Below, piece by piece: positions 29,978 to 37,296 of a stretch of 37,296 nucleotides of DNA. The position numbers and the translations under genes were made by a program. Source of the stretch: Candidatus Altimarinota bacterium. GTDB lineage: Bacteria > Patescibacteriota > Gracilibacteria > UBA1369 > UM-FILTER-53-11. The stretch is from the NCBI GenBank assembly GCA_018061065.1, contig JAGOUV010000014.1, positions 1 through 37,296 of the forward strand, given 5' to 3'. The first letter of the stretch is position 1; each line of letters opens with the position of its first letter. The notes beneath the pieces were generated by a model. The model did not search any database. It had not been told where the DNA came from and worked only from the letters and a program-made list of their open reading frames with translations.

Positions 29978-31081
29978 ATGAATAAGCTCCTTTTTCAGTC
30001 CAACGGACAGCTCTACGAGGGTCATATCGATCCTCGTATTGAAATACCGTCGGGCGGGAAGGGGCTTTTATTTATGCGCGATTTTGTGCGAACGCATAAG
30101 CGGGCTGGTGCCGTACATGGAGAATTCCAAGAAGGCTTTGTAGGATTTGTGACGTATGAAGGCGATTCAAAGTTTGTGTATGTGAAAGAAAAGAAATTAG
30201 TAGATAGTAGTCAGTTTACGATTCTTTCTAATATAAAAAATAACCCTGATTATCCGCTTCCAGATAAGGAAAAATACTTCACGGCTCTTTCTAAAATAAA
30301 AGAGTTATTGGCGGCGGGTGAGACGTATCAAGTAAATTATTCAGAAAAATTTTCGGTGAAGTTTGGGGGTGAGGCAGAAAAAGTTTTTGCGACACTAGTC
30401 GCAAGAAATCCATCGTCGCATCAGTTTTTTTGGGAGACCGATAATTTTGCGTTGATTTCAAATTCGCCTGAGTGTTTGATGCGTATCGATGCGGCAGGAC
30501 GCATTACGACGCAACCGATAAAGGGGACAGTGCGACGTGGAAGAACCGACGAAGAAGATGCGGCTCTCGCAGGTCAGCTTCTGGCTGATGAAAAAAATGC
30601 TGCGGAGCTGGCTATGATTGTGGATCTGGAACGGAATGATATGGGAAAGGTTTGTACTGCTGGATCAGTACGCGTGATTGATGAGCGACGTATTGAAAAA
30701 TATTCGCATGTTATTCATACGGTGGCTGAAGTGGAAGGGCAACTGAATCCTGAATGCGATTGGTATGATGCATTGATGGCGCTTTTCCCCGGTGGTTCCG
30801 TGACAGGTTGTCCTAAGAAGCGCACCATGGAGATTATTAGAGAATTAGAGGGTGAGCCGCGCGGTATTTATTGTGGCAGTGCGGGATGGATTGATTTGTC
30901 GGGCGCGTGTGATTTTAATATTTTGATTCGGACGGCATGGCTTGATAAGAAAACGCATGAGCTTACATTCCGTTCAGGAGGGGGAATCGTGGCGGACTCA
31001 GGTCCACAACAGGAGTATGAAGAGGTATTGCATAAGGCTGCGGCGCTCGCGTCAACAGTTGCTGCTTGCGCGAAAGGGTAG
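29978..31081 (+). CDS. pabB: Aminodeoxychorismate synthase component I
   Basis: The 367-residue enzyme converts chorismate and ammonia (from glutamine via PabA) to 4-amino-4-deoxychorismate, the first step to p-aminobenzoate. The diagnostic PIKGT (K182), rather than the anthranilate synthase PIAGT, shows the PabB activity. ETYQVNYS, LERNDMGK, PGGSVTGCPKKR and the C-terminal GGGIVADSGPQQEYEE also match the chorismate-binding family. The N-terminal region is short, so it is the compact PabB form. No glutaminase (pabA/trpG) lies in the window, so the partner must be elsewhere or free ammonia is used. It begins 8 nt after ndk and heads the pabB-pabC-folP run. Confidence 0.93.
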   Translation: MNKLLFQSNGQLYEGHIDPRIEIPSGGKGLLFMRDFVRTHKRAGAVHGEFQEGFVGFVTYEGDSKFVYVKEKKLVDSSQFTILSNIKNNPDYPLPDKEKYFTALSKIKELLAAGETYQVNYSEKFSVKFGGEAEKVFATLVARNPSSHQFFWETDNFALISNSPECLMRIDAAGRITTQPIKGTVRRGRTDEEDAALAGQLLADEKNAAELAMIVDLERNDMGKVCTAGSVRVIDERRIEKYSHVIHTVAEVEGQLNPECDWYDALMALFPGGSVTGCPKKRTMEIIRELEGEPRGIYCGSAGWIDLSGACDFNILIRTAWLDKKTHELTFRSGGGIVADSGPQQEYEEVLHKAAALASTVAACAKG

Positions 31082-31090
31082 TGTGAGTGT

Positions 31091-31215: not shown

Positions 31216-32019
31216 ATGATCATCTACTTAAATGGTAAATTCGTTGATGCAAAGGAGGCAAAGATCTCGATTTTTGATCCGGCCTTTCTCTATGGAGATG
31301 GAATTTTTGAGACGCTACGAACATACGATGGTGTGGTGTGGGGATTTGATGAACATATCGAGCGGCTCTTTGAATCGGCAAAAATGCGGGGCTGGAAGCT
31401 CTCGTGGAAACCTGCGGAGCTGCGTGAGTTAGTTGAGAAAATATTGAAAAAGAATGAATATAAAGAGGCGCGCATTCGTATTACCGTGACACCGGGGGTG
31501 AAGCGACCTACACTTTTTATTTGGGCACAACCGTTGGAGGAGGTTCCAGATACAGCTTATTCTAAAGGAGTTTCAGCGATTACGTTTCCGCTGGAGCGGC
31601 CGTTTCCACAAATGAAAACTTCCAGTATGCAGGCAATTTTAATCGCGCGAAATGAGATGCAGCGCAAAAAAGCGTTTGAAGCTCTCCTCATTAACACGAA
31701 AGGATTTATTACTGAGGGAACATATACCAATCTTTTTATCGTGAAAAAGAAATTTATCATCACGCCTAAGATTGGCGTGCTACTGGGGACGACGCGCGAA
31801 TTAGTCTTAAAGATGGCACGACCTTTGTTCCGAATTAAACAACGCGATATTACCTTGCGTGAGCTGTTGCGTGCCGATGAGTGTTTCCTTACTAACTCGC
31901 CGAAAGGCATGATTCCTGTAGTGAAAGTTGATGGCGAAAAAATTGGGACGGGACATGTGGGACCGGTCACAAAACATTTGATGGATAAGTTTAAGAAAAA
32001 AGTATGGAAAACGTCATGA
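31216..32019 (+). CDS. pabC: Aminodeoxychorismate lyase (PLP fold type IV)
   Basis: The 267-residue protein belongs to the fold-IV PLP family (BCAT/ADCL). It begins MIIYLNGKFVDAKEAKISIF and FDPAFLYGDGIFETLRTYDG; YGDGIFETLR is diagnostic. The Schiff-base Lys lies in MKTSSMQAILIARNEM (the K-[ST]-x-NY-like position), and EGTYTNLFIV is the PLP-phosphate loop. Beside pabB and folP it most likely releases pyruvate from aminodeoxychorismate to give p-aminobenzoate; a branched-chain or D-amino-acid aminotransferase role is less likely. An open frame extends to 31087, but the family start and the -10 at 31195-31200 favour 31216. It overlaps folP by 16 bp. Confidence 0.85.
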   Translation: MIIYLNGKFVDAKEAKISIFDPAFLYGDGIFETLRTYDGVVWGFDEHIERLFESAKMRGWKLSWKPAELRELVEKILKKNEYKEARIRITVTPGVKRPTLFIWAQPLEEVPDTAYSKGVSAITFPLERPFPQMKTSSMQAILIARNEMQRKKAFEALLINTKGFITEGTYTNLFIVKKKFIITPKIGVLLGTTRELVLKMARPLFRIKQRDITLRELLRADECFLTNSPKGMIPVVKVDGEKIGTGHVGPVTKHLMDKFKKKVWKTS

Positions 32020-32771
32020 TCATGGGTGTTTTGAATGTTACGCCGGATTCTTTTTCCGATGGTGGAAAATTTAATAGTACCGCTGCAGCAGTACGGCAAG
32101 CACGACGAATGTTGAAAGATGGTGCAAAACTTATTGATGTAGGAGGGGAGTCTACGGGGCCCACGAGCATTGATGTTAGCGAAGCGGAAGAATTGCGTCG
32201 CACGATTCCTATTATAAAAAAACTGGCTCAAATAAAGCCTAAACCCTATATATCAATTGATACGTACAAGGCAGAGGTCGCGCGTCAGGCGATTGCTGCG
32301 GGAGCTCGTATGGTAAATGATGTGACAGCATTGAGGGGAGATTTGAACATAGCGGAGGTGATCGCAAGATCGGGTGTCAAGGTGGTGCTCATGTACTCAA
32401 AAGATCCGACCGCACGAACAACGCGTACAAAAAAACAATATAAAGATGTTATTAAAACGGTGAAGGAATTTTTGCTAGAACGTGTCGCATATGCACTATC
32501 TAAAGGCATAAAAAAAGAGCAGATTATCTTGGATCCGGGGATGGGTGCTTTTGTCAGTGGTGATCCTCAATATAGTTTTGAAATTTTGCGGAGATTAGGT
32601 GAACTAAAAAAACTTGGATTCCCATTATTAGTAGGAGCATCGCGTAAAGGTTTTTTGCCCGGGAATGTTAACGAGCGCCTCGTGCCTACGCTATTGGCGC
32701 ACATGGTCGCAGCAAAAAATGGCGCTGATATCATCCGGGTACACGATGTTGTAGCTCACTCTGGACTTTAA
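32004..32771 (+). CDS. folP: Dihydropteroate synthase
   Basis: The 255-residue enzyme joins p-aminobenzoate to 6-hydroxymethyldihydropterin pyrophosphate, giving dihydropteroate. It holds the family motifs NVTPDSFSDGG (11-21), DVGGESTGP (about 46-54), SIDTYK, VNDVTAL, DPGMGAFVSG and GASRKGFLPG. These loops bind pyrophosphate and PABA and are the sulfonamide target. The P-loop-like GASRKGF is intact. Length is slightly below the usual 270-280. It starts 16 bp inside pabC (translational coupling) and converges on a small hypothetical gene, overlapping it by 4 bp. Confidence 0.96.
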   Translation: MENVMIMGVLNVTPDSFSDGGKFNSTAAAVRQARRMLKDGAKLIDVGGESTGPTSIDVSEAEELRRTIPIIKKLAQIKPKPYISIDTYKAEVARQAIAAGARMVNDVTALRGDLNIAEVIARSGVKVVLMYSKDPTARTTRTKKQYKDVIKTVKEFLLERVAYALSKGIKKEQIILDPGMGAFVSGDPQYSFEILRRLGELKKLGFPLLVGASRKGFLPGNVNERLVPTLLAHMVAAKNGADIIRVHDVVAHSGL

Positions 32772-33034
32772 TCATCCCAATCATTCAGACCATCGCAGTC
32801 ATCATTTCCAACCGAAATATGCCCAGCTTCTTTTAGGCAACGAACACGCTCATTATATTGTCTCTCAAAATCCCGTGGGTTCAGCATTTGTACAATTCCA
32901 ATGTCAGAGTCCATGAGCGCGAGCATGATCCGTACTCCAAACGGCGCTCCATTGTTCATGAGGCCGGACGTCTCTACTTTGATAATTTCTTCATCGCTGA
33001 AGTCGGCTGCTTCTCTGATAGTACGTTTTTCCAT
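32768..33034 (-). CDS. Small acidic hypothetical protein
   Basis: An 88-residue protein, not recognised. It is acidic, with a DE/DD-rich C-terminus (NDDCDGLNDWDD) and a mixed alpha/beta-looking middle (APFGVRIMLALMDSDIGIVQ). No membrane segment or signal is seen. The promoter is good: TTGACA-16-TATTGT, with the -10 ending 6 nt before the ATG, so the mRNA should be leaderless. This supports it as a real gene. It is divergent from queD, sharing the -35 region, and converges with folP. Confidence 0.7.
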   Translation of the reverse strand: MEKRTIREAADFSDEEIIKVETSGLMNNGAPFGVRIMLALMDSDIGIVQMLNPRDFERQYNERVRCLKEAGHISVGNDDCDGLNDWDD

Positions 33035-33100: not shown

Positions 33101-33451
33101 ATGAAAGTCACACGCACGTTTAGTTTCTCGGCAGCACATCATCTCACGGATTATCACGGTGCATGTGAGCGTCCGCATGGTCACACGTATCGTCTTGCCG
33201 TTACGGTTCAGGGCGCGGTTCGCGACGATGGATTGGTAATTGATTTTGTGGAGATGAAAAAAATTGTCAGTGAGAAAATTTTGAGCAAGCTCGATCACAC
33301 CGATCTCAATAACACGTTTAAAAATCCTTCAGCAGAACATATTGTTACCTGGATTTGGGAACAGCTTACGTCAGCGTTTTCTACCGTAACCTTGTATGAA
33401 GTACAATTATGGGAAGGCGATAACACCTCGGTCACTTATGATGGAAATTGA
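33101..33451 (+). CDS. queD: COG0720 enzyme (QueD / PTPS-III type) with CExxHGH motif
   Basis: The 116-residue protein is a 6-pyruvoyltetrahydropterin-synthase-fold enzyme acting on dihydroneopterin triphosphate. Zinc ligands are H13 (FSAAHHL), H26 and H28. The catalytic motif is C22-E23-R24-P25-H26-G27-H28. The Cys fits QueD (6-carboxytetrahydropterin synthase, queuosine pathway); the adjacent Glu is the mark of PTPS-III-type paralogs, which give 6-hydroxymethyldihydropterin and bypass FolB. LDHTDLNN, PSAEHI and LWEGDNTSVTY complete the active site. It stands between folP and folK, with queF and queE downstream. A dual function is thus likely but unproven. Its end overlaps the CYTH gene. Confidence 0.9.
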   Translation: MKVTRTFSFSAAHHLTDYHGACERPHGHTYRLAVTVQGAVRDDGLVIDFVEMKKIVSEKILSKLDHTDLNNTFKNPSAEHIVTWIWEQLTSAFSTVTLYEVQLWEGDNTSVTYDGN

Positions 33452-34007
33452 ACGAAAAGTTTTGGGCATTGATAAAAAAAAGCTTATTTCGTCGATTAAT
33501 AAACTGCGGCCAAAACCTAAAAAATTATTTGAGGGCCGTGTTCGTATTCGCTATTTTGATTTTAAAGATGGCTCTATTAGGGCAAAAAAAGATCTTTTAC
33601 GCGTACGTGAACTGCGCGAAAAGGGAAGGCCCGCCCGCACAGAATTAGTCTACAAAATATATAAAGGTGTGAAAAACGGGTGCAAGTGTTTTGAGGAAAT
33701 TGAGGTGGAACAGGTGGGGCCAAAGTGGTTTGAAAAACTGAGTGATTTTTTGACTGCGCTGGGATTTGTGCAAACTTTGTACTATGAAAAAAAACGAACT
33801 CACTACGCATACAAAAAAGTGAAATTTGAAATCGATGAACATCCGCGCATTCCGGCATTTGTTGAAATTGAGGCTCCTTCGCCGAAAGAAATTGACGCGG
33901 TAATAAAACTTCTTGGACTACAGAATAATGAACAGACCGCGGAGAGTATTAGTGAATTACTCGTCCGTAAATATAAAGGCATCGCACTCAACGGTTTGAT
34001 TTTTTAA
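33438..34007 (+). CDS. CYTH-domain triphosphate-tunnel protein
   Basis: The protein (189 residues) has the CYTH signature ExExK (E3, E5, K7) at its start (MMEIERKVLGID). It continues with LRVRELREKG, LVYKIYKGVK, FEEIEVE, YYEKKRTHYAYKKVKFEID and AFVEIEAPS. These charged strands form a tunnel that binds triphosphates with a metal ion. Family members include tripolyphosphatases, thiamine triphosphatase and CyaB-type adenylate cyclase; the spacing looks CyaB/ThTPase-like. The ATG at 33438 (or 33441) lies inside queD, overlapping it by about 14 bp, and folK begins 1 nt after its stop. An upstream ATG at 33396 would overlap more and add a non-family extension, so it was not used. Confidence 0.82.
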   Translation: MMEIERKVLGIDKKKLISSINKLRPKPKKLFEGRVRIRYFDFKDGSIRAKKDLLRVRELREKGRPARTELVYKIYKGVKNGCKCFEEIEVEQVGPKWFEKLSDFLTALGFVQTLYYEKKRTHYAYKKVKFEIDEHPRIPAFVEIEAPSPKEIDAVIKLLGLQNNEQTAESISELLVRKYKGIALNGLIF

Positions 34008-34008
34008 A

Positions 34009-34488
34009 ATGGCACACATCTTTCTCAGCATCGGATCGAATCTGGGTGATCGACAGCAGCTTATTAAATCGGCTGGTGAACTTTTACCTCTTACCATCAC
34101 CAAGTCGTCTTCATTGTATGAGACTGAGCCGTGGGGTGGAGCACAGGGTGGGTGGTTTCTGAACCAAGTTATTGAGGGAAAAACACCCCTTACCTCAAAG
34201 CAATTTCTCAAAGAAATCACGCGTATCGAAAAAGAGTTAGGACGCAAAAGAATCATCCAAGGTCGCTACGAACCCCGCACCATTGATATCGATATTTTGT
34301 TTTGGGACGATGAAATTATACTCCCGCCGCCACTGCATATCCCACATCCGCTCATTGGCGAACGACGGTTTGTTTTAGAGCCGCTTGTGGAGATTGCACC
34401 AGATTTTACTCATCCTGTCCTGAAAAAAACGATGAAAGAATTATTGAACGAATGCCCAGATCACTCTATAGTAAGGACGATTTCATGA
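34009..34488 (+). CDS. folK: 6-hydroxymethyl-7,8-dihydropterin pyrophosphokinase
   Basis: The 159-residue enzyme activates 6-hydroxymethyldihydropterin with ATP, giving the folP substrate. Motifs are LSIGSNLGDRQQ, SSLYETEPWGG, NQVIEGKT, ELGRKRIIQGRYEPRTIDID (about 75-95) and HPLIGERRFVLEPLVEIAP. The R-R/E-P-RTIDIDIL core holds the Mg-binding Asp pair. Length is normal. It starts 1 nt after the CYTH stop, and its own stop overlaps the transketolase start (ATGA), so queD-CYTH-folK-tkt read as one operon. Confidence 0.97.
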   Translation: MAHIFLSIGSNLGDRQQLIKSAGELLPLTITKSSSLYETEPWGGAQGGWFLNQVIEGKTPLTSKQFLKEITRIEKELGRKRIIQGRYEPRTIDIDILFWDDEIILPPPLHIPHPLIGERRFVLEPLVEIAPDFTHPVLKKTMKELLNECPDHSIVRTIS

Positions 34489-35327
34489 ATACGCCTGAGC
34501 TCAAACAACTTGCTACACAGCTGCGCCTGGATATTTTGCACATGGTTCATAAGGCAAATTCTGGCCATGTGACGACATCTCTCTCTGCTATCGACATTAT
34601 TACGATGTTGTATTTTGGTGAGGTGGACGGCGAGCGCATCTTGAAAGTGGATGCAGCCAAGCCACACTGGGATGGACGTGATTATTTCATTTTGAGTAAG
34701 GGACATGGTTGTCCGGCACTCTATGCGGTATTGGCGCATTTAGGTTTTTTCCCCAAGGAAGAGCTCAATCATCTTCGTCAGATCAACGCACTTTTAGAAG
34801 GGCATCCGGTTCGAAAAATCCCGGGAATCGAGGCAACTACTGGTCCGTTGGGTCAGGGAATTTCTTTTGCGAATGGCATCGGTATGGCGCTGAAGATGGA
34901 TAAAAAAACGAATCGTGTTTATGTAGTACTGGGCGACGGAGAGCTTCAGGAAGGCCAAATCTGGGAGTCAGCCATGACGGCGGTACAGTATAAATTGGAT
35001 AATGTGATTTGTTTTGTAGATAATAATAAATTGCAGCAGACGAATTTTGTGCGAGCGGTAAAGCCAGTTGAGCCAATAGGTCCTAAGTTTTCCGCCTTTG
35101 GTTGGCATGTGATAAATGTTCTTAACGGTCACGATTTTGATGAAATTCGCGATGCGATTCGCCGCGCGTGGAAAGTGAAGATGAAGCCGGTGATGATTGT
35201 CTGTAATACGGTGAAGGGTAAGGGAGTGGCATTTACCGAGCAGAAGCCGAATTATCATGGCGTACCGCTTTCCAAAGAAGAGATGGCGGTTGCAGTGCCG
35301 GAGCTGGAGAAGTTATTGACAAAATAG
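34485..35327 (+). CDS. Transketolase, N-terminal subunit (TPP-binding half)
   Basis: The 280-residue protein is the N-terminal half of transketolase. It contains HKANSGHVTTSLS, LSKGHGCPALYA, TTGPLGQGISFANGIGMAL and the thiamine diphosphate motif GDGELQEGQIWE…NN (about 150-181). Split transketolases need a separate C-terminal subunit, and no such gene follows here; the next gene is unrelated. The open frame extends to 34452, but the ATG at 34485 forms an ATGA overlap with folK and gives the family start. Transketolase makes erythrose-4-phosphate and pentose phosphates. A link to folate via chorismate or GTP supply is possible but inferred. Confidence 0.9.
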   Translation: MNTPELKQLATQLRLDILHMVHKANSGHVTTSLSAIDIITMLYFGEVDGERILKVDAAKPHWDGRDYFILSKGHGCPALYAVLAHLGFFPKEELNHLRQINALLEGHPVRKIPGIEATTGPLGQGISFANGIGMALKMDKKTNRVYVVLGDGELQEGQIWESAMTAVQYKLDNVICFVDNNKLQQTNFVRAVKPVEPIGPKFSAFGWHVINVLNGHDFDEIRDAIRRAWKVKMKPVMIVCNTVKGKGVAFTEQKPNYHGVPLSKEEMAVAVPELEKLLTK

Positions 35328-36120: not shown

Positions 36121-36540
36121 ATGAAGCTTTATAAAGAAGGAAAGGACTATCAACAGATTGATCTTAAGGCGTTGCGGACACATATGAAAAAGGTGGCACC
36201 ACTTGAGAGTTTTGCTTTTGAGGAGATTTCACCGGGTGAGCACTGGGTCTCGATCTCAACCCCGGAGCTGACGGCAATTTGTCCGTTTTCCGATTATCCT
36301 GACTTTGGGCGCGTGGAGATTCAGTATGTTCCGGGCAAAGTATGTTTGGAGCTGAAGTCGTTTAAAATGTATATCAATGCGTTTCGCGATATTAAAATTT
36401 TCCACGAGGCGCTAACCGAGGTGATTTTTGCGGATTTTCTGGAGGCGGTGAAGCCACAGAAAGCCTGGATCGTGGTGGATATGAATGTCCGTGGAAATGT
36501 GAAGACGGTCTGCAAAAAGACCTACAAAACGAATCATTGA
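36121..36540 (+). CDS. queF: NADPH-dependent 7-cyano-7-deazaguanine (preQ0) reductase
   Basis: The 139-residue enzyme reduces the nitrile of preQ0 to the amine of preQ1, a step unique to queuosine synthesis. C54 and D61 in ELTAICPFSDYPDFG are the catalytic Cys (thioimide) and Asp, with the same 7-residue spacing as the Bacillus enzyme. VCLELKSFKMYINAFRD, with E and K, is the NADPH/substrate signature, followed by HEALT. Size is that of the unimodular type I form. Together with queD and queE it shows that this cell makes preQ1 de novo; queC is not in the window. Confidence 0.96.
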   Translation: MKLYKEGKDYQQIDLKALRTHMKKVAPLESFAFEEISPGEHWVSISTPELTAICPFSDYPDFGRVEIQYVPGKVCLELKSFKMYINAFRDIKIFHEALTEVIFADFLEAVKPQKAWIVVDMNVRGNVKTVCKKTYKTNH

Positions 36541-37135: not shown

Positions 37136-37296
37136 ATGATTCTCAACGAAGTTTTTTATTCGATTCAAGGCGAGGGCTTAAACATAGGAGTGCCTGCGGT
37201 TTTTGTGCGTTTTGGAAACTGTAATTTAAAGTGCAGCTGGTGCGATACGAAATACACCTGGGATCCTACGGTGAGAGATAACTACGAGGCACAGCT
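37136..37296 (+). CDS. queE: 7-carboxy-7-deazaguanine synthase (radical SAM), truncated by window end
   Basis: Only the first 53 codons are inside the window. They begin [20 protein letters not shown], then [17 protein letters not shown], the QueE start. The radical-SAM 4Fe-4S motif CNLKCSWC is C29-x3-C33-x2-C36. QueE converts 6-carboxytetrahydropterin, the product of QueD, to 7-carboxy-7-deazaguanine. [10 protein letters not shown] and CDTKYTW are diagnostic. The gene is intact as far as seen and starts 5 nt after the preceding stop. Confidence 0.93.

Follow-up and report, generated by a model that had tools for sequence, protein, structure and literature searches.

The COG0720 gene and its neighbours

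The window (the whole stretch of DNA that was analysed, 37,296 nucleotides) is one contig, C11, of a 28-contig draft genome of 1.30 Mb that is 98.5% complete and whose nearest named relatives are Candidatus Peregrinibacteria MAGs. It encodes, in the midst of genes for folate and queuosine synthesis (Table 1), a COG0720 protein that scores 115.5 bits with the Pfam PTPS model PF01242 (cut-off 22.4) and 94.4 bits with the NCBIfam QueD model TIGR03367 (cut-off 89.25). The initial annotation had described a COG0720 enzyme with the sequence C22-E23-R-P-H-G-H, encoded between folP and folK and followed by queF and queE, and had proposed that it serves both folate and queuosine synthesis. The translation and the profile matches bear out the enzyme and its motif, and both queF and the start of queE were found downstream. 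The position between folP and folK is also right, although the genes are not strictly adjacent, an 88-residue minus-strand ORF and a CYTH-domain gene being interposed.

Table 1. Positions of the COG0720 gene, its motif and the surrounding genes in the window
Feature	Position	Strand	Basis and remarks
pabB-like, aminodeoxychorismate synthase component I (p-aminobenzoate for folate)	29978..31081	+	TIGR01824 327 bits, under its cut-off; chorismate-binding Pfam match
pabC-like class IV aminotransferase / aminodeoxychorismate lyase	31216..32019	+	the listed ORF begins at 31087; start probably at 31216
folP, dihydropteroate synthase	32004..32771	+	TIGR01496 274.7 bits, over cut-off
88-aa ORF separating folP from the COG0720 gene	32768-33034	-	no NCBIfam/family match
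COG0720 gene, predicted CExxHGH-type PTPS-I/III (dual QueD and FolB-bypass enzyme)	33101..33451	+	116 aa; profile matches and predicted structure
CERPHGH motif, residues 22-28	33164..33184	+	Cys22 (QueD-type), Glu23 (PTPS-III-type), His26 and His28 (zinc-ligand type); translation and alignment
CYTH-domain gene	about 33438..34007	+	PF01928 40.9 bits; overlaps the 3' end of the COG0720 gene at its start
folK, 6-hydroxymethyldihydropterin pyrophosphokinase	34009..34488	+	TIGR01498 118.6 bits, over cut-off
transketolase N-terminal-domain gene (tktN)	34485..35327	+	start overlaps folK stop; conserved neighbour
queF (type II), preQ0 reductase	36121..36540	+	TIGR03139 104.7 bits, over cut-off
queE, 5' part	37136..37296	+	cut by contig end; continues on contig C15

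The PF01242 match, together with an AlphaFold model (pLDDT 96.6) that Foldseek matches best to structures of PTPS and QueD proteins (PH0634 at the top; TM 0.89-0.94), assigns the protein to the PTPS-type fold. Dihydroneopterin aldolases are matched weakly by Foldseek (E ~0.01, TM ~0.5), as fits the T-fold superfamily to which these enzymes belong in common. With respect to the motif (C22 E23 R P H26 G H28), the Cys fits CxxxHGH and the Glu fits ExxHGH, i.e. the protein carries the PTPS-I/III signature CExxHGH. Cys22 is kept, whereas a strict PTPS-III has Glu in place of Cys, and the spacing is CxxxHGH rather than the CxxxxxHGH that marks PTPS-II (biopterin) enzymes (PMC5041015). C22 and E23 are among just 16 invariant columns in an alignment across 63 relatives of this CE type, and the CE motif is thus not due to chance.

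The queE gene runs off the contig end. Positions 37170-37296 of the window are identical to positions 1-127 of locus L089 on contig C15, an exact overlap of 127 bases between the contig ends, within queE, and the two contigs are probably neighbours in the genome. The queE piece on C15 encodes 199 residues, and its best matches are all QueE models, yet lie under the curated cut-offs; queC follows queE on the same contig (C15:2333-2944). Since C15 shares the overlap, continues queE and carries queC, both genes are very probably part of the cluster in the window.

All six genera of the family share the gene order M16 peptidase-ndk-pabB-pabC-folP-COG0720-CYTH-folK-tktN-queF-queE-queC (the contig of G004 stops after queF), and each has a single COG0720 gene, of the CE type. 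The last steps of queuosine synthesis vary or are missing from some of these drafts, since profile searches did not find QueA in the draft genomes G001, G002 and G005, or Tgt in G005. In each of the six genera, the COG0720 gene and folK are separated by the CYTH-domain gene.

FolB and COG0720 in the genome and across the class

Profile searches of the contigs found exactly one COG0720 gene in the whole genome, and neither a FolB nor an archaeal-type MptD/DHNA aldolase in this 98.5%-complete assembly. The initial annotation had named a separate folB or a second COG0720 gene as arguing against its reading; the genome search has turned up neither. FolE was detected at 251.7 bits, QueC at 217.4 bits (TIGR00364 204 bits, over cut-off), and Tgt, QueA and QueF by profile searches as well, such that folE, folK and folP, plus queE, queC, queF, tgt and queA, the other genes of the two pathways that the search covered, are all present in the genome.

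A sample of 192 genomes of the class, in which FolK was counted where it scored above cut-off (94 genomes), reveals near-exclusion of the two gene types: COG0720 occurs in 65 genomes and FolB in 37, and both occur together in only two. Among the 94 FolK genomes, 56 have a CE-type COG0720 protein without FolB, 33 have FolB alone, two have FolB and a Cys-only COG0720 protein, and three have neither; i.e. CExxHGH is found in 56 of the 59 FolB-less FolK genomes. FolB is missing from all 59 genomes with a CE-type protein, which supports a role of the CE enzyme in folate synthesis, as far as gene content can tell. The exclusion of FolB and COG0720 has a Fisher's p of ~1.6e-19 with kinship ignored; the bulk of the FolB genes fall in two families (f14 and f16), and because the distribution of either gene runs with the family, few independent events lie behind the exclusion.

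A FolB gene could be present in the source genome and have been missed in an incomplete draft, and a 28-contig assembly of 98.5% completeness leaves some room for one. We regard such an oversight as most improbable, given that all 59 CE genomes in the class sample, among them G005 as the further family member that the search covered, yielded no FolB, and that the same search does detect FolB elsewhere in the class, in 37 genomes.

The Cys-only COG0720 proteins number six, two from FolB genomes (G044 and G059) and four from FolK-less genomes (G082, G148, G177 and G186); both proteins from FolB genomes have the Cys without the Glu. The best internal control is G044, which has FolB on one contig and, on another, a CKNMHGH QueD adjoining queC and queF (L043, G044:C4:16891-17319).

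Several cases stand apart from these patterns. Three genomes (G086, G103 and G140) have FolK and neither FolB nor COG0720 was found in them, possibly reflecting incomplete drafts, salvage or another bypass; four others (G014, G066, G119 and G151) have a strong QueC match and no detectable COG0720 gene. Weak QueF matches (~20-33 bits over ~58 positions) were set aside as homologues of FolE, the weak QueF match of G000 lying inside its FolE match, and weak QueC matches below ~40 bits were ascribed to other PP-loop ATPases and likewise discarded.

A predicted branch point for folate and queuosine

Taken together with the class-wide pattern, the genome content supports the dual folate/queuosine interpretation that the initial annotation had put forward. 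We consider it highly probable that one PTPS-I/III-type COG0720 enzyme sits at the only pterin branch point of the cell, where it would both replace FolB for folate and supply queuosine synthesis. In the proposed scheme FolE would make 7,8-dihydroneopterin triphosphate, part of which the COG0720 enzyme, via Glu23, would convert by retro-aldol cleavage to 6-hydroxymethyl-7,8-dihydropterin, to be taken on to dihydropteroate by FolK and FolP, with FolB thereby replaced. The other part would be converted by the same enzyme, via Cys22, to 6-carboxy-5,6,7,8-tetrahydropterin, which QueE, QueC, QueF, Tgt and QueA would take towards queuosine. We infer both activities, and likewise which residue yields which product.

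An enzyme acting in queuosine synthesis alone, i.e. a QueD in which the Glu is incidental, with an unrecognised aldolase supplying the FolB function, would account for the above-cut-off QueD match and for the intact CxxxHGH. It appears very unlikely to us: Glu23 is invariant in the 63 CE proteins, whereas it is absent from the COG0720 proteins of the two FolB genomes and of the four FolK-less Cys-only genomes; the gene stays beside folK in genomes that lack QueC (within 3 kb in 22 QueC-lacking CE genomes); and the source genome yielded no candidate for the FolB function in the FolB and MptD-type aldolase searches.

Conversely, the enzyme could be a PTPS-III acting in folate synthesis alone, making just 6-hydroxymethyldihydropterin, with 6-carboxytetrahydropterin coming from an unrecognised source or not being made. 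The survey lends this reading some weight. QueC is missing from 36 of the 59 CE genomes in the class, and Cys and Glu are both retained in 34 of the 63 CE proteins, L015, L028 and L077 among them, whose genomes lack queC as well as queF (folK is present in 31 of these, of which 22 reach at least 95% completeness), so the CE type evidently persists without queuosine synthesis. For the source genome we nevertheless judge it unlikely, because queF, queE and queC, which are clustered with the COG0720 gene both here and in the family, need 6-carboxytetrahydropterin and no other COG0720 gene is present, and because the window protein exceeds the cut-off of the QueD model.

Cys22, Glu23 and known relatives

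On the dual-function reading, the simplest allocation of the two residues would assign the Cys to the queuosine branch and the Glu to the folate branch. In Plasmodium PTPS the Cys is replaced by Glu38, which is required for 6-hydroxymethyldihydropterin formation, the Glu38Cys variant of the P. falciparum enzyme making none (PMC2229834). The best phmmer match of the window protein among proteins of solved structure is P. horikoshii PH0634, an ExxHGH protein that lacks the Cys and places its Glu opposite E23; the QueD proteins of E. coli and P. aeruginosa carry the Cys and lack the Glu.

The distribution of the Cys calls for caution with respect to its half of this allocation. The Cys is as invariant in the 34 CE relatives lacking both queC and queF as it is in the others, and therefore Cys22 alone is not evidence of QueD activity. 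On the tree of CE proteins, the QueC state changes at least seven times (genomes at least 95% complete; tree built from few columns), so preQ0 synthesis has probably been lost or gained several times while the Cys stayed in place. Tentatively, and with somewhat more doubt than conviction, we raise the possibility that the Cys of CExxHGH in this lineage may be needed for the folate reaction itself, or may have another conserved role, beyond queuosine. If so, the CExxHGH signature over-predicts dual function, and the division of labour in which Cys serves queuosine and Glu serves folate needs revision. By itself, CExxHGH cannot separate dual-function from folate-only enzymes; for the window genome, the case for queuosine function is that queE, queC and queF are present and that its COG0720 gene is the only one of its kind.

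The ACERPHGH sequence is shared with Thermodesulfobacteriota, and transfer from that group was considered and rejected, in that the proteins of the family nest among the other CE proteins of the class; the likeness itself is discounted, the Thermodesulfobacteriota loci having been retrieved using that very peptide as the search pattern.

The CxxxHGH signature of PTPS-I and the ExxHGH signature of PTPS-III are not mutually exclusive, and CExxHGH can exist (PMC5041015). Bypasses of FolB have been described (PMC3223725), with Glu replacing or accompanying the Cys (PMC5615194), and PTPS-I/III hybrids are reported to act in both the folate and the queuosine pathways (PMC5041015, citing Phillips et al. 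2012); the content of Phillips 2012 and Pribat 2009 is taken here as given in PMC5041015, PMC3223725 and PMC5615194. As in those hybrids, the window protein has CExxHGH, folB is absent and a lone COG0720 gene is expected to serve folate and queuosine; the window case, predicted from genes alone, differs in occurring in a Peregrinibacteria-type family and in having a conserved cluster that unites the genes of both pathways. With the PTPS-III enzymes (Plasmodium PTPS, the bacterial FolB-bypass paralogues and PH0634-type proteins) it shares Glu at the ExxHGH position, linkage to folK and folP and the lack of FolB, but the window protein also retains the Cys, and its genome also has queE, queC and queF. 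Compared with QueD/PTPS-I (E. coli 4NTK, P. aeruginosa 2OBA), the CxxxHGH motif, the fold (TM ~0.92-0.94, query-normalised) and the linkage to queE, queC and queF are the same, whereas the window protein has Glu after Cys and its gene is also linked to folate genes.

The idea of a dual-function CExxHGH enzyme is thus already published and the window enzyme is a well-supported further example, to which the present work adds the lineage, the conserved combined folate-queuosine cluster and the caution about the Cys. It provides a clean genomic case of one predicted enzyme feeding two pathways in a family of small-genome bacteria. In Peribacteria, which form a class within the same candidate phylum, no folate synthesis genes were found (PMC4736985), and the route predicted for the window consequently bears on which of such bacteria need the folate of others.
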